From IMG/VR virus record IMGVR_UViG_3300022602_000095, positions 1 to 62,503 of that record: a stretch of DNA of 62,503 nt, one strand, 5' to 3'. Positions within the stretch are counted from its first letter, which is position 1; every line of letters starts with the position of its first letter. The notes beneath the pieces were generated by a model. It saw only the letters and a list, made by a program, of their open reading frames with translations, was not told the origin of the DNA and did no database searches. The DNA is from a virus. Positions 2,911 through 62,503 of this stretch are shown in pieces. Both the position numbers and the translations under genes were made by a program.

Positions 2911-2983
2911 ATCCCTAGGTGCGCTTTTGCATACAATCTGCAAAGGTATTTGTGTTCATAGTAAAACCAATGCACCTAGGGAT
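2911..2983 (-). repeat. 73-nt composite hairpin element, copy 1
   Basis: Outer arms ATCCCTAGGTGC (2911-2922) and GCACCTAGGGAT (2972-2983) pair perfectly. An inner 6-bp stem, TTTGCA/TGCAAA, has loop TACAATC. A 17-bp direct repeat (2883-2899 and 2947-2963) places a second copy of the HNH start region inside the element. The element at 5101-5173 has exactly the same segment lengths with different but complementary arms. On the plus strand it resembles a terminator, since the stem is followed by ATTTTCTT. Confidence 0.75.
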
Positions 2984-2990
2984 TTTCTTA

Positions 2991-3025
2991 TTGCAATTTC
3001 CTTCAGATTTCATCATAATGTATGC
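2991..3025 (+). promoter_or_regulatory. Early leaderless promoter for the 3026 gene
   Basis: -35 TTGCAA (2991-2996), 17-nt spacer, -10 CATAAT (3014-3019), then 6 nt to ATG. It sits directly after the 73-nt hairpin element. Confidence 0.75.
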
Positions 3026-3241
3026 ATGAAGAATAAGAAAGAACCAATCAATGGAGCAATTATCGAAGCTGTCGACGTCCGCTCTGGAGTCCATCAGTAT
3101 GACCCACAGAACAAGACAGTTGTTGAGATCTCTTTCAAGGGATACAACAGCAATTACATTCAGGTAGTTGATATGAATACAGCACGCTCGTTGATGAACC
3201 AACTCAAAGAGATTCTTCCTCCTAACTATGTCAACCTTTAA
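3026..3241 (+). CDS. Hypothetical MKNK-type early protein
   Basis: A 71-residue soluble protein (MKNKKEPINGAIIEAVDV). The start at 3026 is fixed by a leaderless promoter 6 nt upstream; a longer in-frame ORF from 2876 would read antisense through the HNH start and hairpin and is rejected. No domain recognised. The next gene overlaps its last 14 bases. Confidence 0.65.
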   Translation: MKNKKEPINGAIIEAVDVRSGVHQYDPQNKTVVEISFKGYNSNYIQVVDMNTARSLMNQLKEILPPNYVNL

Positions 3242-3500
3242 GAGAAAGTATTGGTATCCTATCTCAGTTGATATCGAGATAGGATTAACAAAGCTTCGTC
3301 GATTTGTTGATAAACTTTATCTGAAAGTCTGGCGATTTATTCTAGCATTCTGGATTGTTCTCTGTCTATCCTGGGGCTATCTAATGTTCATGCGTGACTA
3401 TAATCTTCTATCAAATCACGCAGATCTTGATGCTCCTTTCCAACCCTATTATACTAACTGGAACACCTATGGAGCCCCAGGTCAAGATCCTCCAAAATAA
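3228..3500 (+). CDS. Single-pass membrane protein
   Basis: A 90-residue protein with a basic N-terminus, one transmembrane segment at about residues 36-55 (WRFILAFWIVLCLSWGYLMF) and a Pro/Tyr-rich C-terminal part of about 35 residues, probably periplasmic. It overlaps the preceding gene. No family recognised. Confidence 0.55.
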   Translation: MSTFKRKYWYPISVDIEIGLTKLRRFVDKLYLKVWRFILAFWIVLCLSWGYLMFMRDYNLLSNHADLDAPFQPYYTNWNTYGAPGQDPPK

Positions 3501-3503
3501 AGC

Positions 3504-3538
3504 TTGTAACTTCCTTTCAATCTAGCCATAATAAGAGT
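3504..3538 (+). promoter_or_regulatory. Early leaderless promoter for the 3539 gene
   Basis: -35 TTGTAA (3504-3509), 17-nt spacer, -10 CATAAT (3527-3532), 6 nt to ATG. Confidence 0.8.
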
Positions 3539-3892
3539 ATGAAAAATAAAGCAACTGCAATAAACAACAACGTAAATAAGAAAGCAATCCTAGAGTATAT
3601 GACTTGGTCATCTCCCTTGAACCAAGCTTTTATTATAGAAGCTCTAGGAAGAGATAACATTGAGTTTACTTATGAAGGCAAGGAGACTAATATCACAAAA
3701 GTGAAGCAAGCTATTAAACTCTTCGGTGCTGATCGAATTATGAATGCCCTTAAGTCCTATGCTTCGGAAGTTTGGAATGAAAAAGAGCTGCTTAAAAAGC
3801 AAATGAAAGGTTGTTTTATTAGTGCTGATGCCTGGATTCAGTGTGCTAATGAGGCTCTAAGACTTACAAGTTCGGAGAGGGTTTGGAGTTAA
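3539..3892 (+). CDS. Hypothetical MKNK-type early protein
   Basis: A 117-residue, mostly helical protein starting MKNKATAINNN. Its middle (SSPLNQAFIIEAL, IKLFGADRIMNAL) suggests a compact helical fold; no known domain is recognised. It has its own leaderless early promoter. A 70-residue gene follows 12 nt after the stop. Confidence 0.65.
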   Translation: MKNKATAINNNVNKKAILEYMTWSSPLNQAFIIEALGRDNIEFTYEGKETNITKVKQAIKLFGADRIMNALKSYASEVWNEKELLKKQMKGCFISADAWIQCANEALRLTSSERVWS

Positions 3893-3904
3893 TTTTTTTA
3901 CAAA

Positions 3905-4117
3905 ATGATCAATCTACAAACTTACGTTGATAAAGTCTGGGCGAGCTCCGATCGAGGTGAGAAGATTAAACACCTGACAGAGATGGTAAACGCATCTACT
4001 GCTAAAAAACTCACAAAGATTAAAACCCTTCGCGACATGACTCGTATGAGTAGTACTCAATTGGATTTCCTAGCAAGTAATTATTCAATGTCTGGAATTG
4101 GAATGAAAGTTATTTAA
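3905..4117 (+). CDS. Hypothetical basic early protein
   Basis: A 70-residue basic helical protein (MINLQTYVDKVWASSDRGEK). No domain recognised. It is joined to the next reading frame by a TAAtATG junction. Confidence 0.55.
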   Translation: MINLQTYVDKVWASSDRGEKIKHLTEMVNASTAKKLTKIKTLRDMTRMSSTQLDFLASNYSMSGIGMKVI

Positions 4118-4118
4118 T

Positions 4119-4311
4119 ATGATTAAGTACTTAGGTGAAGGAACAGCCTAAGTTAGAACAACTTGTAGAGATTTTAACCGTACAAGGAAAAGAACCGCGT
4201 AGTATTATTAGCATCCTTTGTTCTATAATTAAGCAGCAAATGATGTACGGTGGTACTTTAGAAGATAAGATTAACTTTCACATTGAAGAAGCCAAAAAAA
4301 GAAGCTTGTAA
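4119..4311 (+). pseudogene. Early gene with apparent +1 frameshift
   Basis: The expected start (TAAtATG junction, ATG 4119) reads only MIKYLGEGTA before a stop. The +1 frame continues for 58 codons to 4311 with good coding character (EQPKLEQLVEILTVQG, ending EEAKKRSL). That frame could also start at GTG 4135, but no ribosome site is visible. Options are a decayed gene, a sequencing indel, a programmed +1 shift near TTA-GGT-GAA, or a GTG-started gene with an overlapping leader peptide. The 3' end overlaps AAGCTTGTAATTC, an orphan early -35 element. Confidence 0.45.
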
Positions 4312-4314
4312 TTC

Positions 4315-5085
4315 TTAATATCTCTTCCCATTGTAAAACGATCCTTTTGAACAATTATCTTTACTCCAAAGCGGTTGAAGATTTGTGTAGTGAAAACATT
4401 GTTTTTGCTGTTCCTTATCGGTTAAATCAAACGAAACACAAGGTTTAATGTGATCAATATGCCATCCGTGTGACGTGTAATTATCCCAAGACATTCCTGG
4501 TAGCCAATGTTTTTCAAGATGTGTTCTCAACTCATTCAATGAACAACCAAGTAATGTCTCTATTCGTTTTGAGTGTGTATTGTTCGCTCTTTTAAGAGCC
4601 CCTCTAATTCTAGATCTACACTTTACAGATAGCTTGAATTGTATATCATTATGGTATCGATCAGTAAACCATGTATTGATCTTTTCTCTATTCTTTGTAC
4701 TCCATTCTTTAGCACGAACAATACACTGCTCTTTATTTCTTTGATAATAATCTCTGCTCTGTTGTGATTTTATATCTTTGTTTTCTTGATATAAATTCTT
4801 ACTTTTCTGCAATACAATATTTTTATTTTTTTGATAGTATTTTTTACATTTAATAGACAGTACATCTTTATTTTCTTGATAACGTATCTTGTGTTGTTGC
4901 AATATAGTATCTTTATTTTTGGTGTAGTATTGTTGTGTAGTTAATATACATCTCTCTTTATTATTCTCGTAGTAATTACGAGCTGCTCTTTTTCTCTTTT
5001 CTTTATTACGTTGATAGCTTAAACGATTAGCTAATCTTCTTTTCTCAATTTGAGATAGTTCTTGTGTAGTATTATCGTCCTTCAT
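4315..5085 (-). CDS. HNH homing-type endonuclease with expanded Y-x-x-N-K repeats
   Basis: A 256-residue paralogue of the 2248-2895 gene. The N-terminus is nearly identical (TTQELSQIEKRRLANRLSY) and the repeat array is longer, with about eight 15-17-residue units such as YYENNKER, YYTKNKDT, YQENKDV, YYQKNKNI and YYQRNKEQ. The C-terminal HNH domain has LPGMSWDNY, WHIDHIKPC and NLQPLWSKDN. CATAAATA ends 7 nt before the ATG and is a T4-type late promoter. The gene lies between an orphan early -35 element (4303-4313) and an early gene, as if inserted into a promoter. Confidence 0.85.
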   Translation of the reverse strand: MKDDNTTQELSQIEKRRLANRLSYQRNKEKRKRAARNYYENNKERCILTTQQYYTKNKDTILQQHKIRYQENKDVLSIKCKKYYQKNKNIVLQKSKNLYQENKDIKSQQSRDYYQRNKEQCIVRAKEWSTKNREKINTWFTDRYHNDIQFKLSVKCRSRIRGALKRANNTHSKRIETLLGCSLNELRTHLEKHWLPGMSWDNYTSHGWHIDHIKPCVSFDLTDKEQQKQCFHYTNLQPLWSKDNCSKGSFYNGKRY

Positions 5086-5100
5086 GCATAATTATTTATG

Positions 5101-5173
5101 TCTCCGAACGCTCTTTCCGTATACATTCTACGGATTGTGTAGTCCTTCATGCAGAAGATTCAGCGTTCGGAGA
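5101..5173 (-). repeat. 73-nt composite hairpin element, copy 2
   Basis: Outer arms TCTCCGAACGCT (5101-5112) and AGCGTTCGGAGA (5162-5173), inner stem TCCGTA/TACGGA with loop TACATTC, then a 27-nt segment holding a second ATGAAGGAC copy of the HNH start. Segment lengths (12-3-6-7-6-27-12) match the element at 2911-2983 exactly while both stems differ and remain complementary. Confidence 0.75.
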
Positions 5174-5181
5174 TTTTTTTA

Positions 5182-5216
5182 TTGCCGATTCATAATTTTT
5201 CCACCATAATGGTGTT
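5182..5216 (+). promoter_or_regulatory. Early leaderless promoter for the 5217 gene
   Basis: -35 TTGCCG (5182-5187), 17-nt spacer, -10 CATAAT (5205-5210), 6 nt to ATG. Confidence 0.75.
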
Positions 5217-5405
5217 ATGAAAAATAAAAACGAAGAATACATCGGTTGGATAGCTGATTACCTCCAGGACCTAGAATACAAGTACTCGGAGAGATCAATG
5301 GATCGAGAAAAGTTCCTGTTAGTTAATGAGATCTTGGAGACAATTCAGGAGAAGTATAGTGAGATGGTTCTAGGTATTCCTTCCGACCACGAAGAAGAAG
5401 CTTGA
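5217..5405 (+). CDS. Hypothetical MKNK-type acidic protein
   Basis: A 62-residue acidic helical protein (MKNKNEEYIGWIADYLQ...), ending DHEEEA. It has its own leaderless promoter, and the promoter of the next gene overlaps its stop. No domain recognised. Confidence 0.65.
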   Translation: MKNKNEEYIGWIADYLQDLEYKYSERSMDREKFLLVNEILETIQEKYSEMVLGIPSDHEEEA

Positions 5406-5436
5406 AATTCCTTTTGAATTCCTTTATACTAATAGT
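5402..5436 (+). promoter_or_regulatory. Early leaderless promoter for the 5437 gene
   Basis: -35 TTGAAA (5402-5407), 17-nt spacer containing TTCC, -10 TATACT (5425-5430), 6 nt to ATG. This is close to the family consensus. Confidence 0.85.
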
Positions 5437-5664
5437 ATGAAAAATAAAGAAAGAAAGACGTTCGAAGAAGTAATGACAGAGTATAAGACCCTCGGGGATA
5501 TGTTCCAGAGGATGGTTAGGAAGACTGCCTCATTGGAGTTAAAGGAATGGGGTGTAGAAGAGATAGGGTCATCGGATATTAACCATCAGATTGTTTCCCT
5601 CTATAACTCATATGGCGGGTTTGACGAGATTGTCCGTCATGGTTTGGATCTAGTTCGGAGTTAA
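5437..5664 (+). CDS. Hypothetical MKNK-type early protein
   Basis: A 75-residue soluble helical protein (MKNKERKTFEEVMTEYK). Its promoter gives a leaderless mRNA. No domain recognised; probably co-transcribed with the next gene 7 nt downstream. Confidence 0.65.
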   Translation: MKNKERKTFEEVMTEYKTLGDMFQRMVRKTASLELKEWGVEEIGSSDINHQIVSLYNSYGGFDEIVRHGLDLVRS

Positions 5665-5671
5665 TATAACA

Positions 5672-5884
5672 ATGGAATACAAACTCATTCAATATAGAGA
5701 TAAGGATCTAAAGAAGTTCAATGATGATATCAATAAGCTTCTGAAGGATGGATGGACCTTACATGAAGATCTACGGATTATTACTATAGAACAAACCGAT
5801 GAAAAGGATGGTTATGTAGTTAATAGTCAGCAGCTACAGAAGGAAGAGGATAAACCCCAGCTTGGGTTTAATGTAAAGAAATAA
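5672..5884 (+). CDS. DUF1737-like small protein
   Basis: A 70-residue protein. Residues 1-35 (YKLIQYRDKDLKKFNDDINK followed by LLKDGWTLHEDL) match the pattern of the DUF1737 family, in which a short beta strand and helix precede a GW motif. The C-terminal half is charged. Family function is unknown. It follows the 5437 gene closely, and its stop abuts the promoter of the next gene. Confidence 0.6.
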   Translation: MEYKLIQYRDKDLKKFNDDINKLLKDGWTLHEDLRIITIEQTDEKDGYVVNSQQLQKEEDKPQLGFNVKK

Positions 5885-5889
5885 GAAGC

Positions 5890-5924
5890 TTGAAATTCCT
5901 TTTTGATTACTGTATTATACTAAT
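5890..5924 (+). promoter_or_regulatory. Early leaderless promoter for the 5925 gene
   Basis: -35 TTGAAA (5890-5895), 17-nt spacer, -10 TATTAT (5913-5918), 6 nt to ATG. Confidence 0.8.
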
Positions 5925-6191
5925 ATGAAAAAAGCTAAGATTGAGGATGTACTCAATACAATCTCCGAACTTAGTAGGAGGAGGGAAGAGAGAGATAATC
6001 CTTACCGTAAAGTAAACGAACTTCAATCTATTATAGGAAGTACAATCAATGGCGTATATCCTAGCCTTCAGGAAGCCATTAACATTAGATACAAGAAGAT
6101 TAAAGAAGAAGTTGATGGACTAAAACCTATTCGTAAACCTTTTAGTAGCGGGATGGAGGATGAGATGCTCGTAAGAGAGTATGATTGGTAA
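5925..6191 (+). CDS. Hypothetical early protein, possible paralogue of the 8552 gene
   Basis: An 88-residue basic/acidic helical protein (MKKAKIEDVLNTISELSRR). The 8552-8809 product aligns by eye over most of its length (SELxxxxEE..., a central hydrophobic patch, YxxIKEEVDGLKPI versus YNNVKKEMDTFEPL), so the two may be diverged duplicates. It has its own leaderless promoter. Function unknown. Confidence 0.6.
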   Translation: MKKAKIEDVLNTISELSRRREERDNPYRKVNELQSIIGSTINGVYPSLQEAINIRYKKIKEEVDGLKPIRKPFSSGMEDEMLVREYDW

Positions 6192-6200
6192 TAGTAAAGC

Positions 6201-6236
6201 TTGAAATTCCTAATTAAATTCCAATAGAATAATAGT
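6201..6236 (+). promoter_or_regulatory. Early leaderless promoter for the 6237 gene
   Basis: -35 TTGAAA (6201-6206), 18-nt spacer, -10 TAGAAT (6225-6230), 6 nt to ATG. Confidence 0.7.
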
Positions 6237-6437
6237 ATGAAAATTGAACTAGAGATCTCAAACGACGAGGTAAAAACAATCATCGAAGCATGTAAGGATC
6301 AAGGGATTGATGTTACTGTAGATGACGTGAAGGAACAGTTAGAGGAATGGTTTCATGCTACAGTAGAGGACTATAATGAACCGAGGATGGATGACATCAT
6401 TAGCTCCCTAATTGATCTAGCTGACAATCCTTCCTAA
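6237..6437 (+). CDS. Hypothetical acidic early protein
   Basis: A 66-residue strongly acidic protein (MKIELEISNDEVKTIIEACK). The acidic surface would suit a protein-binding or DNA-mimic role, but nothing specific supports that. The next gene starts immediately after its stop. Confidence 0.65.
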   Translation: MKIELEISNDEVKTIIEACKDQGIDVTVDDVKEQLEEWFHATVEDYNEPRMDDIISSLIDLADNPS

Positions 6438-6605
6438 ATGAATTACGACGTTACCGTCTATGATCTAGAAGGAAATGAAGTAAAGAAGTTCTATAACTTC
6501 AATGATATAGACGCCACAAACATGTATAGTTACTACGTTACTAACGATGACTATGTAGTAAAAGTAAAAGAGACAGAGTTATTCTATAGTCAAAAAGACA
6601 GATAA
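6438..6605 (+). CDS. Small early protein, all-beta
   Basis: A 55-residue protein (MNYDVTVYDLEGNEVKKFYN...) with alternating strand-like residues, starting directly after the upstream stop with no gap. No domain recognised. It is the last gene before a 400-bp non-coding stretch. Confidence 0.55.
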   Translation: MNYDVTVYDLEGNEVKKFYNFNDIDATNMYSYYVTNDDYVVKVKETELFYSQKDR

Positions 6606-6972
6606 AATAAGGAAAAAGAGTTAGTTTTAAGTAAAAAAATAAGAAAAGACTAAGAAAGTTAGTCTAGACTAACATTTATAGTATAAGACAACATAGTATC
6701 TTACGTAGAAGTACGAATAACTATTAGCCCTGATTAACTATTAAAAGCGCACGGATTCTACAGCCCCGTTGAGGGAGAAACTGAAGCACCTATACTAAAC
6801 AGACGTAGATAATAGAGAAAGAAATATAGAAATTCTATTGTTTCTCCGGAGAGAGTGAGTTCTAGTAAGTCCTGCGAGTATTAAGAGTAGTCCCTCCCCA
6901 CTCCCGGAAGCTCCAGCAGAAACTTTCCCGCGACCAAACTGCATCATCTACGGCAAAAACGGTTTTATTGTA
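6606..6972. other. Non-coding stretch with a perfect 16-bp palindrome
   Basis: No ORF with a supported start is seen. It contains the palindrome GTTAGTCTAGACTAAC (6659-6674), a smaller palindrome ATAGAAATTCTAT, and a C-rich segment (about 6895-6935). It does not read as a tRNA. It could hold an RNA, an operator or an origin; no specific function can be assigned. Confidence 0.5.
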
Positions 6973-7007
6973 TTGCCGGTTCCTAGAAAAGCCCATATAC
7001 TGATCAT
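6973..7007 (+). promoter_or_regulatory. Early leaderless promoter for the 7008 gene
   Basis: -35 TTGCCG (6973-6978), 17-nt spacer, -10 TATACT (6996-7001), 6 nt to ATG. Confidence 0.8.
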
Positions 7008-7217
7008 ATGAAGAATAAGAACTACTACGATCACTTCTGTGATTCTATCCTATCCCTAGACCCGAAGACCCGGTACGTTCTGCTTAAGGCAGCCTCTGCC
7101 GTTGTCCCGGACAATAACGCACTCTCCTATCTATGGAGTGCTTACCAGGACCTAGACAACTCACTTGGTATCTTTATTAGTGCTTTGTTAGATGAATCTA
7201 AACTCGCAATTGACTAA
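7008..7217 (+). CDS. Hypothetical MKNK-type early protein
   Basis: A 69-residue helical protein (MKNKNYYDHFCDSILSLDPK). It has its own leaderless early promoter. No domain recognised. A 47-residue gene follows 7 nt after the stop. Confidence 0.65.
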   Translation: MKNKNYYDHFCDSILSLDPKTRYVLLKAASAVVPDNNALSYLWSAYQDLDNSLGIFISALLDESKLAID

Positions 7218-7224
7218 TACTGAC

Positions 7225-7368
7225 ATGAATGTAATATTAAAGATGTTTGGATATGAAGTCCGTAAACCTTCACTTCTTTTATTTTCGATGTTAGATTTTA
7301 CTAACGAAACTTACTTTCAAACAGTTCAGAGACATGGTCGAATCTCAGACTATTTAATTAAACACTAG
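7225..7368 (+). CDS. Small early protein
   Basis: A 47-residue protein (MNVILKMFGYEVRKPSLLLF...), basic and partly hydrophobic. It lies in the same direction directly after the 7008 gene and was found between longer ORFs. No domain recognised. Confidence 0.45.
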   Translation: MNVILKMFGYEVRKPSLLLFSMLDFTNETYFQTVQRHGRISDYLIKH

Positions 7369-7419
7369 TATGCAGGTACTTCTGGGAATCTACAAGCTGG
7401 AAATAAGAAAAGATTCCCA

Positions 7420-7454
7420 TTGAAGTTCCTTTAAGATTCCCTCATACTCAGAGT
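7420..7454 (+). promoter_or_regulatory. Early leaderless promoter for the 7455 gene
   Basis: -35 TTGAAG (7420-7425), 17-nt spacer, -10 CATACT (7443-7448), 6 nt to ATG. Confidence 0.8.
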
Positions 7455-7586
7455 ATGAAAATCAAGACATTCAGAATCGAGCTGAAGGAACCTCCGAAGG
7501 TACGCCAACCCTGGGCACCAGTAACTAGGAAGTTCAAGGACAGAACCAAATACAATCGTCGGGACTTTAAGCTTGTACATTCCTGA
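7455..7586 (+). CDS. 43-residue basic early protein
   Basis: A very basic short protein (MKIKTFRIELKEPPKVRQPW...) ending in a KFKDRTKYNRRDFK stretch. Small phage proteins with an RQPWAPVT-type segment followed by a basic YNRxxFK tail are common, but their role is unknown. It has a leaderless promoter, and its 3' end carries the -35 of the next promoter. Confidence 0.6.
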   Translation: MKIKTFRIELKEPPKVRQPWAPVTRKFKDRTKYNRRDFKLVHS

Positions 7587-7607
7587 TCTTTGAGCCATAA
7601 TAATAGT
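7573..7607 (+). promoter_or_regulatory. Early leaderless promoter for the 7608 gene
   Basis: -35 TTGTAC (7573-7578), 17-nt spacer, -10 CATAAT (7596-7601), 6 nt to ATG. It fixes the start at 7608 rather than the upstream in-frame codon at 7590. Confidence 0.8.
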
Positions 7608-7868
7608 ATGAAAAATAAAAACACACTGACACCCGAAGCCATCATCGCCATCGCCGGAGCCTACGACGATATCGTAGGTAAGATTTACGACGCTCTTAAC
7701 GAGCTGAAAGAGCTGATGGAGACACCCCAGTATAAAGAGGCTGTTAACATCATCGATACCGAAGATGAGGTATATGAAGAGGCAGCAGTAGCTGTTGAAG
7801 ACGCTTGTATGAGCGGTGAGTTTAGTTGCTTTATCCAAGACCTGGCTGAAGGATGGGCCAGGGAATAA
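7608..7868 (+). CDS. Hypothetical MKNK-type acidic protein
   Basis: An 86-residue acidic helical protein (MKNKNTLTPEAIIAIAGAYD). The promoter position sets the start. No domain recognised. Its acidity and size are typical of early phage proteins that bind host factors (inference only). Confidence 0.65.
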   Translation: MKNKNTLTPEAIIAIAGAYDDIVGKIYDALNELKELMETPQYKEAVNIIDTEDEVYEEAAVAVEDACMSGEFSCFIQDLAEGWARE

Positions 7869-7871
7869 GGC

Positions 7872-7906
7872 TTGAAGTTCCAATCAAATTCCCTTATACT
7901 GAACGT
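7872..7906 (+). promoter_or_regulatory. Early leaderless promoter for the 7907 gene
   Basis: -35 TTGAAG (7872-7877), 17-nt spacer, -10 TATACT (7895-7900), 6 nt to ATG. Confidence 0.85.
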
Positions 7907-8008
7907 ATGAAAAATAAGATCAACAATCCAATCAACCTCTGGGTTCTAGCAGCTACCTCGATCATCGTAGTCATTAATATCATCGCGTTCGCAACAATGC
8001 CCCGATAA
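7907..8008 (+). CDS. 33-residue membrane microprotein
   Basis: MKNK start followed by one transmembrane helix (about residues 11-29, LWVLAATSIIVVINIIAF). It is shorter than most gene finders report, but it has a full-strength leaderless promoter and the common ATGAAAAATAA 5' end, which argues that it is real. Function unknown. Confidence 0.6.
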   Translation: MKNKINNPINLWVLAATSIIVVINIIAFATMPR

Positions 8009-8014
8009 AAAAGC

Positions 8015-8099
8015 TTGATCGTTCCTTTAAAAGAAGACATAATAAAAGAGTAGAATAAGTCAAACAACAACAACAAAAACAAACAACAACAAAACACAT
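8015..8099 (+). promoter_or_regulatory. Early promoter with CAA-repeat leader
   Basis: -35 TTGATC (8015-8020), 17-nt spacer, -10 CATAAT (8038-8043). The RNA should start near 8050, giving a leader of about 50 nt composed of CAA/CAAA repeats, with no G-rich ribosome site, up to ATG 8100. Such a leader would be unstructured. Confidence 0.7.
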
Positions 8100-8456
8100 A
8101 TGAAAAATAACAACGCAACTCCGATCGAAGTCATTGACTATCTCTGCGCATACTATGATCAATTTGGCAACTTGCCTGTTCCAGTCATTGAATGCCAGAT
8201 CTCCGGAACGGCCTATACGGCATTCGGAACTAATCTTAAAAACAAGATCGATCGCGCTGGCGGTATTAAGGAGCTTCTTACAACCTTTCAGGGACGTGGA
8301 GTAGCCAAAAAGGAGAAGAAAGCCGAAGTTAAGGCGACGGAGACTGAGAACGTTTCCGCTACGATTACTAAGCGTTCACGTCCTAGCCGTTCGAAGGCTG
8401 CCATTGCAGCTCGTATGGCTGAAAAGGCTACGGCTGAGGTTCAGATTGCAGAGTAG
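8100..8456 (+). CDS. MKNN-type early protein with basic/Ala-rich tail
   Basis: A 118-residue protein. Residues 1-60 form a compact helical domain (ATPIEVIDYLCAYYDQFG, followed by a KNKIDRAGGIKELL segment). Residues 65-118 are low-complexity and rich in K, A, E, T and R (KRSRPSRSKAAIAARMAEK), reminiscent of a nucleic-acid-binding tail. It is the only gene here with a long CAA leader and its own strong 3' hairpin, which suggests high expression. Family not recognised. Confidence 0.65.
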   Translation: MKNNNATPIEVIDYLCAYYDQFGNLPVPVIECQISGTAYTAFGTNLKNKIDRAGGIKELLTTFQGRGVAKKEKKAEVKATETENVSATITKRSRPSRSKAAIAARMAEKATAEVQIAE

Positions 8457-8476
8457 TTTCTGAGACGTAAGCGTAA

Positions 8477-8505
8477 GGGGGTGGTGGTAAAGGGCCATCA
8501 CCCCC
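8477..8505 (+). terminator. Strong GC hairpin after the 8100 gene
   Basis: An 11-bp stem, GGGGGTGGTGG / CCATCACCCCC (one G-T pair), with a 7-nt loop. There is no long T-run, so it may stabilise the mRNA end rather than act as a classical terminator. Confidence 0.6.
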
Positions 8506-8516
8506 ACATTATGTTC

Positions 8517-8551
8517 TTGAAGTTCCAATCAAATTCCCTTATACTGATCGT
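8517..8551 (+). promoter_or_regulatory. Early leaderless promoter for the 8552 gene
   Basis: -35 TTGAAG (8517-8522), 17-nt spacer, -10 TATACT (8540-8545), 6 nt to ATG. The spacer is nearly identical to the promoter at 7872, suggesting duplication of promoter cassettes. Confidence 0.85.
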
Positions 8552-8809
8552 ATGAAAAATAAGAACAACGTAACGAACAGAACGGTATCAGAGCTTGTAG
8601 ACCTCATTTGTGAGCTCCAGGAGAAGAAAGGTAATGGAGACTTCAAACATTCATATGCATTGGGTACCATTCAGGCCATCTTAGATTGGCACGTTAAGGG
8701 CTATACAACTGACCTTCAGGGAACGATTAACGATTCATATAACAATGTAAAGAAAGAGATGGATACTTTTGAACCGCTAACAGCAGTCACTGACTACCCA
8801 ACAGACTAA
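8552..8809 (+). CDS. Hypothetical MKNK-type early protein, possible paralogue of the 5925 gene
   Basis: An 85-residue protein (MKNKNNVTNRTVSELVDLIC...). The pattern of residues from SELVDLICELQ to MDTFEPL parallels the 5925 gene product. No known domain. It is followed through a TAAtATG junction by two tiny membrane proteins. Confidence 0.65.
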   Translation: MKNKNNVTNRTVSELVDLICELQEKKGNGDFKHSYALGTIQAILDWHVKGYTTDLQGTINDSYNNVKKEMDTFEPLTAVTDYPTD

Positions 8810-8810
8810 T

Positions 8811-8882
8811 ATGAAGAAACGTTACATCATCTTATTCATCCTAGCTTTAATTACTATCAACTACCTAACTGACTCCTTCTAA
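8811..8882 (+). CDS. 23-residue membrane microprotein
   Basis: Basic start (MKKRY) then one hydrophobic helix (IILFILALITINYL). It starts one base after the 8552 gene stop, the operon junction used throughout this region. Function unknown. Confidence 0.45.
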   Translation: MKKRYIILFILALITINYLTDSF

Positions 8883-8883
8883 A

Positions 8884-8994
8884 ATGAATCCTTATCTACT
8901 CATCTTCATCCTTCTTCTAGCTATCCTTATCCTACCACTTCATGTTATAGTCCTGGCTGTACTCATTGCCTTGATTGTTAAAGCATTGGCATAA
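8884..8994 (+). CDS. 36-residue membrane microprotein
   Basis: Almost entirely hydrophobic (two short runs around a Pro-Leu-His turn: LLIFILLLAILILPLHVIVL). It starts one base after the preceding stop. A membrane hairpin or a single long helix is likely; function unknown. Confidence 0.45.
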   Translation: MNPYLLIFILLLAILILPLHVIVLAVLIALIVKALA

Positions 8995-9003
8995 TTACTA
9001 TAG

Positions 9004-36452: not shown

Positions 36453-36827
36453 TTAATTAGATAGACTTTCTTTAAATGCAATGTAATGATTAATTTCTCT
36501 TTGAGAAAGTTCTAAATTACTTGCTATCATTTTTATATCATTGTTCTCTTCTTTCTTTTTTTCATCTTTAGTTTTCTTAATATATGAAATACGACGTGAA
36601 GATACCTTAGGCATTACTGCAACAAACAAATTATATAACTCTTTCTTTTCATCAAAGATGCCAAGATACTTGTTTATTATGTTACTAAACGTCGCAACCG
36701 ATGGTGAATACATACTACACCATCGGTTGAGCATAAATGGTGAGAATTCTCCTTCTTCATCGACAGTATTTAAACAAGTTTTCTTTTTAGTAAAGAGAAC
36801 ACTTGATATAAAATCAAATATCGTCAT
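36453..36827 (-). CDS. gp62: gp62-like clamp-loader small subunit
   Basis: A 124-residue protein. MTIFDFISSVLFTKKKTCLN, then FSPFMLNRWCSMYSPSVATF, VAVMPKVSSRRISYIKKTKD, and LELSQREINHYIAF fit the small clamp-loader subunit of T4-like phages, which with gp44 loads the gp45 clamp. It is shorter than T4 gp62 (187 residues) but resembles marine T4-like versions recalled from memory. Its start overlaps the GIY-YIG endonuclease stop (ATGA). Confidence 0.55.
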   Translation of the reverse strand: MTIFDFISSVLFTKKKTCLNTVDEEGEFSPFMLNRWCSMYSPSVATFSNIINKYLGIFDEKKELYNLFVAVMPKVSSRRISYIKKTKDEKKKEENNDIKMIASNLELSQREINHYIAFKESLSN

Positions 36828-37705
36828 ATTGTATATGGATTATAATTGCTATCTATATTGCTATCAATTAAACAGTAATAATTTTTACGGTATTCTCTGT
36901 ATTGTTTAATTTTATTTTGTTTCTGTAATTGTTGCAATATACCCTGTACTTTATATTTTCCATTATTAATATTAAATTGTGTACACAGTTTATTACAAAT
37001 ATCGCGCGCAGTTTGGCTTTTATTCACTGTAATTAAATTTAAAATAATGCTTTCAAAAGAAAAATTAGGTTGAACGTATCGTATATCATTATAGCCAAAG
37101 CTATACATTTTAATTTTATTTTGCTCTATTAGTATTTTAATTCGTTTTTTATAAACAGAGGCGGTACAACTTCTATTAAGAATTTCTGGTATCTCAGCAG
37201 CTTTTACCCATTTGTTTTGTTTGAGATACTTCAAAATCTGCTTATTGTCTTTTTCATATAATTTCAACATGTTATCTGCTCGCGCAGTAACGCGGTTCAA
37301 AATCGTCTGCTGACTTTGCTTATATTCTCCTTTTTTACCTTTATTCCAAGCAGATCTACCCTTTAGACTCTCTGACAGTTTCCTACGTGTATGTTTACCT
37401 AATTTACCGTTTTTACCTCCTTCTCTTATATTACAGTATACAGGATCGACTAGTGCATTACTAGATAAAATCCAGTTTTTTTCGGCAGCATTTAATGCAT
37501 CTACATCATTACAGTATTGTAATATCTTTCTTTTCCAACATCCTCTATATTTCTTATTATAGAATCTTTTTATAAAGATAGCGCCAGACCCAATATAACC
37601 GTCATCGACTGTACCTATATGTTGACCAATATATTTTTTATGTATAATTGCTTTCGGGTGCGTATTTTCCCAGAGATATATAAAACCATAATAATTATCA
37701 CCCAT
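36824..37705 (-). CDS. GIY-YIG homing endonuclease with NUMOD3
   Basis: A 293-residue protein. Residues 5-95 form the GIY-YIG nuclease: YGFIYLWENTHPKAIIHKKY, IGQHIG, GSGAIFIKRFYNKKYRG and EKNWIL. HTRRKLSESLKGRSAWNKGK (about residue 120) is a NUMOD3 DNA-binding motif. The rest is helix-turn-helix-like with repeated units. It sits directly before the gp62-like gene with a 4-nt overlap, a common homing position. The start codon is enclosed in a hairpin with the late promoter in the loop. Confidence 0.9.
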   Translation of the reverse strand: MGDNYYGFIYLWENTHPKAIIHKKYIGQHIGTVDDGYIGSGAIFIKRFYNKKYRGCWKRKILQYCNDVDALNAAEKNWILSSNALVDPVYCNIREGGKNGKLGKHTRRKLSESLKGRSAWNKGKKGEYKQSQQTILNRVTARADNMLKLYEKDNKQILKYLKQNKWVKAAEIPEILNRSCTASVYKKRIKILIEQNKIKMYSFGYNDIRYVQPNFSFESIILNLITVNKSQTARDICNKLCTQFNINNGKYKVQGILQQLQKQNKIKQYREYRKNYYCLIDSNIDSNYNPYTI

Positions 37706-37732
37706 AATATTATTTATGCTATGGGTGATAAT
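37694..37732 (-). promoter_or_regulatory. Late promoter inside a start-codon hairpin
   Basis: ATTATCACCCATA (37694-37706) and TATGGGTGATAAT (37720-37732) are perfect 13-bp complements. The minus-strand start ATGGGTGATAAT lies in one arm and CATAAATA in the 13-nt loop. Read-through RNA would hide the start, while late RNA starts after the first arm and exposes it. Confidence 0.75.
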
Positions 37733-50252: not shown

Positions 50253-50891
50253 TTACTGTATTATAATAGAATAAAAATCGCTTGCAAGCATTTCCTTCGA
50301 TGGATTCGAATTATACTGCATGCGATAGACCTTCCATCCAGCTTGTTTTAATATTTTATCTCTTTTTTTATCAGGTGTTCTTATTGTTTTTTGATTTAAT
50401 TTATGCCAATACATTCCATCATATTCAATGTTTATTTTTAATTCAGGTATAGCTATATCAAGGTATATTTTATGATCATCTTTAATTTTAAATTCATAAT
50501 CTAATATAGCGGTCGGAAATTTATGTAATACTATTTCATATAATAATCTTTGTGGTTTACTAATACGTTTAGCAAATTTTCTAATATTATTTTTCTTCAA
50601 CCATTTACTTCGCTTTTGTTTCATTTCTGTTGCTTTACTTCCATATAATTGTTCATATGTTTTACCGCGTGAGTGACCTGCAACAGATTTAAATCCTTTA
50701 GCTCTAGAGTGATTATTGTTTTGCTTTAACTTCGATAATATATTTGACTCATTAAATATACGAACTATCTTCAATACGGTAGGCCAACTTAATTTTATTT
50801 TTTTAGCTATTTGTGTAGTCGAAAATCCGTGCACTATTAATGTACAAATAATTTTATAATCATTTTTATATTTTTTAGTATAATCTACCAT
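50253..50891 (-). CDS. Vsr/DUF559-like free-standing homing endonuclease
   Basis: A 212-residue basic protein. Residues 1-60 have helix-turn-helix features (FSTTQIAKKIKLSWPTVLKI), residues 60-100 a NUMOD-like basic stretch, and the C-terminal part IYLDIAIPELKINIEYDGMY-WH then KKRDKILKQAGWKVYRMQYN is the Vsr/DUF559-type PD-(D/E)XK nuclease pattern used by several homing endonucleases. It is inserted 1 nt upstream of queE, and the queE promoter lies in its 3' end. Late promoter at 50899-50906. Confidence 0.8.
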   Translation of the reverse strand: MVDYTKKYKNDYKIICTLIVHGFSTTQIAKKIKLSWPTVLKIVRIFNESNILSKLKQNNNHSRAKGFKSVAGHSRGKTYEQLYGSKATEMKQKRSKWLKKNNIRKFAKRISKPQRLLYEIVLHKFPTAILDYEFKIKDDHKIYLDIAIPELKINIEYDGMYWHKLNQKTIRTPDKKRDKILKQAGWKVYRMQYNSNPSKEMLASDFYSIIIQ

Positions 50892-61144: not shown

Positions 61145-61540
61145 ATGTTAATGCTTGAGGATTATATCAAAGAATTAGAGGAAGATCTTAAGATTAATGA
61201 ATTAAATCTTAAGGACTATCAGCTTCGTTTACCTGCTATTAAACACAAATGGACAGGTAGAATGATTCGTCTTAAGTCTCTCATCAATAATCTTAAGAAG
61301 CAAAAAGATAAAATTAAATCTGATATTATGTCAGAGATTGATCATACTAGTGCTGTTAAATTAACTCAGCCTGTTATAGCTGCTACTGCTGATAAGCACA
61401 GTAAAATACAGGATATTAATAAACAAATTCAAGATGCTGAGCTAATTGTTGAACTTTTAGAACGCTCTGAAAAGACGTTAAGTAGTTGCTCATATGATAT
61501 ATCAAATATCATAAAGATTATGCAGCTTGAAACGACATGA
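61145..61540 (+). CDS. uvsY: UvsY-like recombination mediator
   Basis: A 131-residue helical protein (T4 UvsY has 137). MLMLEDYIKELEEDLKINEL, RLPAIKHKWTGRMIRLKSLI, and DIMSEIDHTSAVKL resemble UvsY, which loads UvsX recombinase on ssDNA. It is followed with an ATGA overlap by the UvsW-like helicase, the same pairing as in T4. TATACT lies 7 nt before ATG 61145; ATG 61151 is an alternative start. Confidence 0.7.
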   Translation: MLMLEDYIKELEEDLKINELNLKDYQLRLPAIKHKWTGRMIRLKSLINNLKKQKDKIKSDIMSEIDHTSAVKLTQPVIAATADKHSKIQDINKQIQDAELIVELLERSEKTLSSCSYDISNIIKIMQLETT

Positions 61541-62503
61541 TAAAGTTTGATTACGACGAGAAAAAAAAGCTTGGTATTATCTCAGGAGAGATGTTTGATG
61601 AGATACGTGAGCATTTCTCAGTAAAAAATGAAGCAGCACATTTTATGCGTCGCCGAGGGCGCTTTATGCCTTCAAGAACTTACGCTATCACACCGACAGG
61701 AAGGTTTGAACCCTGTCTATATACAGAAATAAAGAAATTCTTAACTAGTGTACAGTACGTTGGTGAGATTGAATACAGTAAAGGTGTATTTGAGCAAGTT
61801 GTACCAGCAAGACATGGTTGGCATCAACAGTTAGATTTTAAAAATGAGATTTTACCTCTTAAACTTGAATTAAGAGACTACCAGGAAGAGATTGTAAAAA
61901 CATGTTTGTTTAACGGTAGAGGTACAATAATTTTAGCTACAGCAGGGGGTAAGACTCTTACATCAGCATCATTGATATCAAAAGTATACCAGCTTTATAT
62001 GTCTCCATATAATAAACAAAATTTTAAATGTCTGTTTATTGTACCTGATCGAGGACTTGCGTCTCAGACTTATCAAGATTTTATTGATTACGGTGTACCA
62101 TTTAGTGTATCAAAATGGACAGGTGACGATGATTTAGATTTATCATCAAATGTAATTGTTTCAAATCTTGGTATCTTACAAAGCAAAAATAGTAACTTAG
62201 AATGGCTTGCAGATATTGACCTGCTTATTGTTGATGAATGCTTGCGTTCAAATACACTCATAACAACTGATAAGGGATACAAAAAAATACAAGATATTAA
62301 AGTTGGGGATATAGTTAAGTCATATAACTGTATTACACACAAGGAAGAGTTAAAACCCGTAATCAACACATGGAAGAATTTGATTAAAAGTAATTCTTAT
62401 ACATATTTTTTAGAGATAGAGCTTGAAAATGGGTCTCTTATACAAGTTACTCCAAATCATAAAATATATACAAGCCGCGGCATGGTTAGAGCTGATGAGC
62501 TCA
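61537..62503 (+). CDS. uvsW: UvsW-like helicase, partial, split by an intein
   Basis: The first 322 codons of a gene that runs off the window. Residues 1-105 form an UvsW-type N-terminal region. LELRDYQEEIV (Q-motif, 111-120), TIILATAGGKTLTSA (Walker A, 136-140), and LLIVDE (233-234) are SF2 motifs. UvsW drives branch migration and reverses R-loops in T4. The expected D-E-C-H box is cut after D-E: the next residue is Cys235, which starts an intein. The rest of the helicase is outside the window. Confidence 0.85.
   Translation, partial: MIKFDYDEKKKLGIISGEMFDEIREHFSVKNEAAHFMRRRGRFMPSRTYAITPTGRFEPCLYTEIKKFLTSVQYVGEIEYSKGVFEQVVPARHGWHQQLDFKNEILPLKLELRDYQEEIVKTCLFNGRGTIILATAGGKTLTSASLISKVYQLYMSPYNKQNFKCLFIVPDRGLASQTYQDFIDYGVPFSVSKWTGDDDLDLSSNVIVSNLGILQSKNSNLEWLADIDLLIVDECLRSNTLITTDKGYKKIQDIKVGDIVKSYNCITHKEELKPVINTWKNLIKSNSYTYFLEIELENGSLIQVTPNHKIYTSRGMVRADEL
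62239..62503 (+). mobile_element. Intein inserted in the helicase DExH box, N-terminal part
   Basis: Cys at 62239 followed by LRSNTLITTDKGYKKIQDIK-VGDIV (intein block A, with C1 and the conserved G-D), then LENGSLIQVTPNHKIYTSRG-MVRADEL (block B, T-P-N-H with the catalytic His). Insertion is in the most conserved ATPase motif, a frequent intein site. Splicing is needed to restore helicase activity. The C-terminal splice site and any endonuclease domain lie beyond the window end. Confidence 0.9.

Follow-up and report, generated by a model that had tools for sequence, protein, structure and literature searches.

The two nested hairpins found upstream of HNH endonuclease genes in the window (the complete virus record, 62,503 bases, from a virus that encodes a T4-type major capsid protein) are very probably small antisense-RNA genes, each carried by a mobile endonuclease cassette, as predicted from their sequences. 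Each is read as a nested hairpin of ~75–85 nt on the strand opposite the endonuclease gene; its start point and that of the endonuclease mRNA flank a near-palindromic late promoter, and its ~27-nt loop is complementary to the first 12–20 nt of the endonuclease mRNA. To our knowledge, the means by which free-standing homing endonucleases avoid harming the phage are known mainly from T4, where hairpins in their own mRNAs and autorepression by the protein are used. The cassette described here instead appears to bring its own antisense RNA, offering a compact and testable RNA switch on near-leaderless mRNAs, mutually specific RNA pairs that evolve to about five specificities in one phage genome, and a structural signature for finding such modules elsewhere.

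The elements and their cassettes

Two hairpins with shared geometry, each holding a second copy of the ATG region of its HNH gene, had been described in a first-pass annotation of this DNA, and both observations hold. The arms of element 1 (2911–2922 and 2972–2983) and of element 2 (5101–5112 and 5162–5173) are perfect 12-bp inverted repeats with 49 nt between them; the 12-3-6-7-6-27-12 layout, with its 6-bp inner stem, 7-nt loop and 27-nt segment, is exact in both, and both fold far better than shuffled sequences (z −6.3 for element 1 and −5.2 for element 2). The HNH1 start region is duplicated in element 1 as a 17-nt perfect direct repeat (2883–2899 and 2947–2963), and that of HNH2 in element 2 with a match of 14/15 nt (5077–5091 and 5142–5156). 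The start of HNH1 had to be corrected: its ATG is at 2895, so that the gene spans 2248–2895 on the minus strand (215 aa, predicted mRNA +1 at 2898), while HNH2 spans 4315–5085 on the same strand (256 aa, predicted +1 at 5087).

Predicted antisense RNA 1 (2911–2993, plus strand) consists of the 12-bp outer stem, an inner stem-loop at 2926–2944 (TTTGCA TACAATC TGCAAA), a 27-nt antisense segment at 2945–2971, of which 2947–2963 is antisense to the 5' end of the HNH1 mRNA, and a U-rich tail. Predicted antisense RNA 2 (5100–5182, plus strand) has the same architecture, with the inner stem-loop at 5116–5134 (TCCGTA TACATTC TACGGA) and the loop segment at 5135–5161, where 5135–5152 is antisense to the 5' end of the HNH2 mRNA with an 8-nt bulge in the mRNA. 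A nested terminator-like hairpin of similar geometry at the 3' end of HNH1 (2189–2259) was considered as a third element and rejected, as it has neither a copy of a start region nor a late promoter.

The HNH proteins match the HNH/endonuclease VII group in PHROG, and in this respect the genes have the family membership of a homing endonuclease cassette; no Pfam family scored above its cut-off for them, and NCBIfam and solved structures gave nothing useful. The cassette is compact, with the HNH stop codon at one end (that of HNH2 lies 4 nt from the stop of the preceding gene) and, at the other, the terminator of the RNA, which immediately precedes the early promoter of the neighbouring gene. 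In a related genome, G015, the right-hand neighbour of HNH2 is 81% identical and has an ordinary promoter and no hairpin, and identity of the left-flank DNA ends at window position 4314; other genes intervene in G015, so that this is not a clean empty site. The suggestion that the element is a recombination mark, or the end of a mobile element that adapts to each site, is not supported: the loop adapts to the mRNA 5' end of its own gene, not to the insertion site, and in G015, where the cassette is lacking, the neighbouring gene has no hairpin.

Two further genes of the window may be recorded here. A possible endonuclease gene of the MTES_1575/DUF559-like type (Vsr-fold) at 50253–50891 (minus strand) has its own late promoter, and a UvsW-like helicase reading frame at 61537–62502 (plus strand) appears to enter, as the contig ends, an intein-like stretch (VDE|CLRSNTLITTDKGY).

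Further copies, covariation and the RNA strand

The first-pass annotation had made its reading depend on a third instance, to be sought with a covariance model, and at least 13 more distinct instances were found. The family now comprises 15 distinct instances (E1–E15) in 8 virus records; these are not all independent and form ~12 groups when related copies are taken together. Fourteen of the 15 adjoin HNH-type genes, two of which have decayed (E5 and E9), and E10 adjoins a gene for a LAGLIDADG-type endonuclease (phrog_4645, E = 1e-45). The intact targets are lysine/arginine-rich, nuclease-like proteins of ~190–310 aa. The third copy, in L004, came from a search with both HNH proteins (two-protein alignment) and the fourth, in L044, from a pattern set around the promoter. 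With these four copies as its basis, a covariance model recovered nine further full-length copies, spread over four records, with six in a single 130-kb phage, G003. Divergent copy E14 (L190, near-identical in L191) emerged when hairpins repeating a start-codon region were sought in a blind scan. The other divergent copy, E15 (L200), was noticed on inspection of the sequence upstream of HNH genes and was matched later by covariance model R2 (E = 2.7e-7). Both obey the same rules and neither was used in forming the model. The blind scan, which covered 2.19 Mb and required a hairpin loop repeating a start-codon word that lies just downstream, returned 23 distinct sites; 13 of them are family members, and a Markov control yielded 6 sites.

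Other searches were negative within their scope. A single-protein search of viral contigs gave no HNH2 relatives, Megablast with 20 kb and a sensitive DNA search with the element against GenBank phages gave no match and thus no isolated phage with the element, scanning bacterial genomes for the pattern yielded no instance that was supported, and Rfam gave no match at the gathering score for 12 loci. R2 matched none of 44 capsid relatives, a result consistent with a patchy, mobile distribution, although R2 also gives no significant match to E14 and is therefore insensitive to divergent copies. One candidate, in L344, was rejected as a coincidental coding match. A possible divergent instance before an HNH gene in L208 (~2457–2536), with 8-bp arms and a 9-nt start-region repeat (TTATGAATA), is too weak and was left uncounted. 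At E5 and E9 (L240 and L158, G003) the RNA element looks intact beside truncated HNH genes.

In 13 hand-aligned copies 222 of 233 stem pairs are Watson–Crick, with many compensatory changes, which bears out the earlier proposal of a functional fold conserved by covariation (the automatic count on alignment A6, 75% paired, is too low because MAFFT misaligned some arms). The remaining 11 pairs are all C·A or A·C when read on the endonuclease strand, and correspondingly all G·U on the opposite strand, leaving no mismatch there; E15 contributes a twelfth such pair. These pairs represent ~8 independent events, of which the outer stem accounts for four. The ends of the inner stem were set by eye, whereas those of the outer stem involved no choice, and the outer stem taken by itself gives 4/4 G·U on the opposite strand. 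The U-rich tail likewise occurs only on the strand opposite the endonuclease gene; 13 of 15 copies have 6–9 T among its first 10 nt (it is weak in E11 and absent in E14), which agrees with an intrinsic terminator as defined by a GC-rich stem and a following U-run. The best reading of these sequences is that the functional RNA is the strand opposite the endonuclease gene, and that the outer stem and, usually, the U-rich tail serve as its terminator.

Comparison of the genes behind the elements shows that most copies share a similar leader and similar first ~11 codons, but that the proteins which follow differ; from this contrast the 5' module appears to have been exchanged between endonuclease families. 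A shared N-terminal tag, NTTQELS (DNA ACCACACAAGAACT; for example at 5053–5085, minus strand), precedes unrelated endonuclease bodies, and is lacking in E14 and E15.

Promoters and the match to the mRNA start

To predict the +1 position of each mRNA, 5 nt were allowed after the late promoter ATAA(A/G)TA; no spacing is commoner in the window genome, whose late promoters most often lie 5 nt before the ATG. Shine-Dalgarno sites are found at 1 of 73 window genes, compared with 5.5% expected at random, and it seems that mRNAs with no leader, or almost none, are the rule in this phage. In the region 3500–9000 (plus strand) there are many small early genes with sigma70-like promoters (TTGAAA-17-TATACT) that end ~6 nt before the ATG.

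Between the endonuclease start point and that of the hairpin RNA lie 12 bp that are nearly palindromic, and perfectly so in E6 (CATAAATATTTATG). For HNH1 and RNA 1 this segment is 2899–2910, with ATAAGTA on the minus strand (2904–2910) for the endonuclease and ATATATA on the plus strand (2899–2905) putatively for the RNA; for HNH2 and RNA 2 it is 5088–5099, with ATAAATA on the minus strand (5093–5099) and, again putatively, ATAATTA on the plus strand (5088–5094). The mirrored heptamer precedes the hairpin RNA's first base by exactly 5 nt. As a measure of spacer palindromy, it agrees with the late consensus at 4.0 of 5 letters, versus 2.4 of 5 at 21 other late promoters of the window (p = 7e-5). 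It is usually one letter off that consensus, as in the two window elements, and further off in E12, so its strength is uncertain. Late transcription would accordingly diverge from a shared promoter, as we infer from this geometry; another type of promoter for the antisense RNA is possible.

The loop copy and the real start of the gene are 100% identical from predicted +1 to +8 in 10 independent copies, and in the same copies identity falls to 10–30% at −4 to −10; the identity thus ends at the predicted transcription start. At −2 the loop copy differs in 10/10 (E1, E2, E4, E6–E12), with −1 and −3 mostly matching, and this difference perhaps avoids promoter activity in the copy. The identity from predicted +1, the late-promoter spacing and the scarcity of Shine-Dalgarno sites lead us to read the repeat as the 5' end of a near-leaderless mRNA, to which the opposite-strand RNA is, on this prediction, antisense. 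The GTG start codon of E8 is mirrored in its loop, and the only clean substitutions in otherwise clean repeats (E8 and E15) carry C in the copy where the gene has T, which gives G·U in the RNA duplex. Beyond ~11 nt the pairing is discontinuous in several instances.

The match is specific to the RNA's own mRNA. Predicted own-pair duplexes range from −20 to −25.5 kcal/mol, with a mean of −22.7 compared with −11.2 for cross pairs; in 200,000 permutations no summed energy was as good as the observed one. The top target of each window RNA, out of 477 possible start sites there, is its own HNH gene. In G003, most RNAs pair far less strongly with the mRNAs of other cassettes than with their own, and the chief exception is E11.

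Proposed control, alternatives and known systems

Late in infection the shared promoter would fire both ways, yielding a near-leaderless endonuclease mRNA and an antisense RNA whose loop would pair with the 5' end of that mRNA and cover its start codon. Ribosome entry should be blocked by such pairing, since there is no Shine-Dalgarno site and the leader has at most a few bases; the duplex may also, or alternatively, be exposed to RNase III. In either case endonuclease output would be kept low late in infection and, each RNA being tuned to its own mRNA, several cassettes could share a genome largely without cross-silencing. Repression itself is what we infer from these features. The option of a regulatory hairpin raised in the first-pass annotation fits this proposal, which adds what that annotation had missed: the RNA strand, the terminator, the back-to-back promoters and the antisense nature of the ATG repeat. 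A wider reading, which we put forward as a speculation more apt to fail than to hold, is that the back-to-back late promoter and the antisense RNA together form a mobile regulatory module, which passes between unrelated families of homing endonucleases and evolves pairing specificities that are orthogonal to one another. Every cassette would then be under its own private silencing, and might in addition silence the matching endonuclease when another phage co-infects, a form of RNA immunity in phage competition. An observable RNA competition between co-infecting phages is also a prediction of the antisense-RNA proposal itself.

A leader hairpin in the endonuclease's own mRNA, of the I-TevI/mobE type, would hinder translation of read-through transcripts and let late transcripts that start downstream escape. 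Such control is established for T4 endonucleases (PMC2988022), and here too a late promoter lies immediately downstream of the hairpin; we nevertheless regard this explanation as very improbable, because the non-Watson–Crick pairs are all mismatches on the gene strand and G·U on the other, the start codon and promoter lie outside the stem, there is no Shine-Dalgarno site to hide, and the loop's copy of the start region is left unexplained. Likewise very improbable, in our judgement, is that the hairpin is no more than an intrinsic terminator, protecting the early promoter of the neighbouring gene against antisense read-through, its loop copy being neutral or homogenised by direct-repeat recombination. 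The frequent U-rich tail and the fact that the hairpin, as read from the sequence, abuts the −35 region of the divergent neighbour would suit this role. Under it, however, one would not account for a copy whose identity starts exactly at the predicted mRNA start and breaks invariably at −2, for covariation of the inner stem as well as the outer, or for two clean copy substitutions that both preserve pairing as G·U.

The elements might also act as DNA, either as an operator or homing-site copy bound by the endonuclease or as a recombination or insertion mark. I-TevI does act as its own repressor, at an operator that resembles its homing site and overlies its late promoter (PMC2988022), and the cassette is mobile and patchy. 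Even so, one leader type serves two unrelated endonuclease families, the repeats vary widely among related HNH proteins yet always match their own start, the strand-asymmetric wobbles are unlike a DNA fold, and the unoccupied neighbour in G015 has no hairpin; these points make a DNA-level role most improbable. Finally, an in-frame upstream ATG in E3–E6 and E10 would allow the hairpin region to be coding, as an extension of the endonuclease, a reading to which we give almost no credence: the frame is broken or stopped in E1, E2, E7, E8, E9, E11, E12 and E13, and in several instances copy and gene differ by an 8-nt gap, so that their similarity is at the nucleotide level. The coding, operator and plain-terminator readings were rejected on these grounds.

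The antisense RNA that we favour finds its closest analogy in ZorO-OrzO, a divergent toxin–antitoxin pair of type I in which pairing extends over 18 nt and depends on RNase III for its effect, and sibling pairs are target-specific (PMC3919570). ZorO-OrzO, ShoB-OhsC and TisB-IstR likewise have a small RNA gene beside, and divergent from, its target, and the RNA predicted here is complementary to a target mRNA at the same locus. The target of those systems is, however, a small hydrophobic toxin, whereas here it is a DNA endonuclease of 190–300 aa; the complementarity here is carried by the loop of a terminator-like hairpin, starting at the mRNA 5' end, and the promoters are overlapping phage late promoters. 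As the protein targeted here differs from such a toxin, membership of the type I family is not claimed. An antisense RNA linked to a homing endonuclease gene in a T4-like phage has a precedent in CfrI of cyanophage S-PM2, a long RNA of ~225 nt that is antisense to the homing endonuclease gene and to psbA, which it traverses (PMC2984593); the RNA predicted here is ~80 nt, has its whole length upstream of the gene, and owes its match to a duplicated segment instead of to overlap.

The T4 endonucleases, controlled by own-mRNA hairpins and autorepression (PMC2988022), resemble the control proposed here in that RNA structure and a late promoter act on a phage homing endonuclease. The hairpins of I-TevI, segB and mobE hide the ribosome site within the gene's own mRNA, unlike the structured RNA here, which comes from the other strand and leaves the start codon outside the stem; the gene makes no use of a Shine-Dalgarno site. 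As a patchily distributed intergenic cassette encoding HNH-type proteins, the present genes resemble free-standing HNH homing endonuclease genes of the mob and seg type, from which they would differ in bringing their own divergent promoter, antisense RNA and terminator. No such antisense-RNA pair for homing endonucleases was described in the literature searched. Another endonuclease gene of the same genome, coding for a GIY-YIG-like protein (36824–37705), is under a different control that is, to judge by its sequence, an I-TevI-like late hairpin: a 13-bp inverted repeat at 37694–37732 (minus strand) holds the late promoter ATAAATA (37711–37717) in its loop and the ATG of the gene in its 3' arm.
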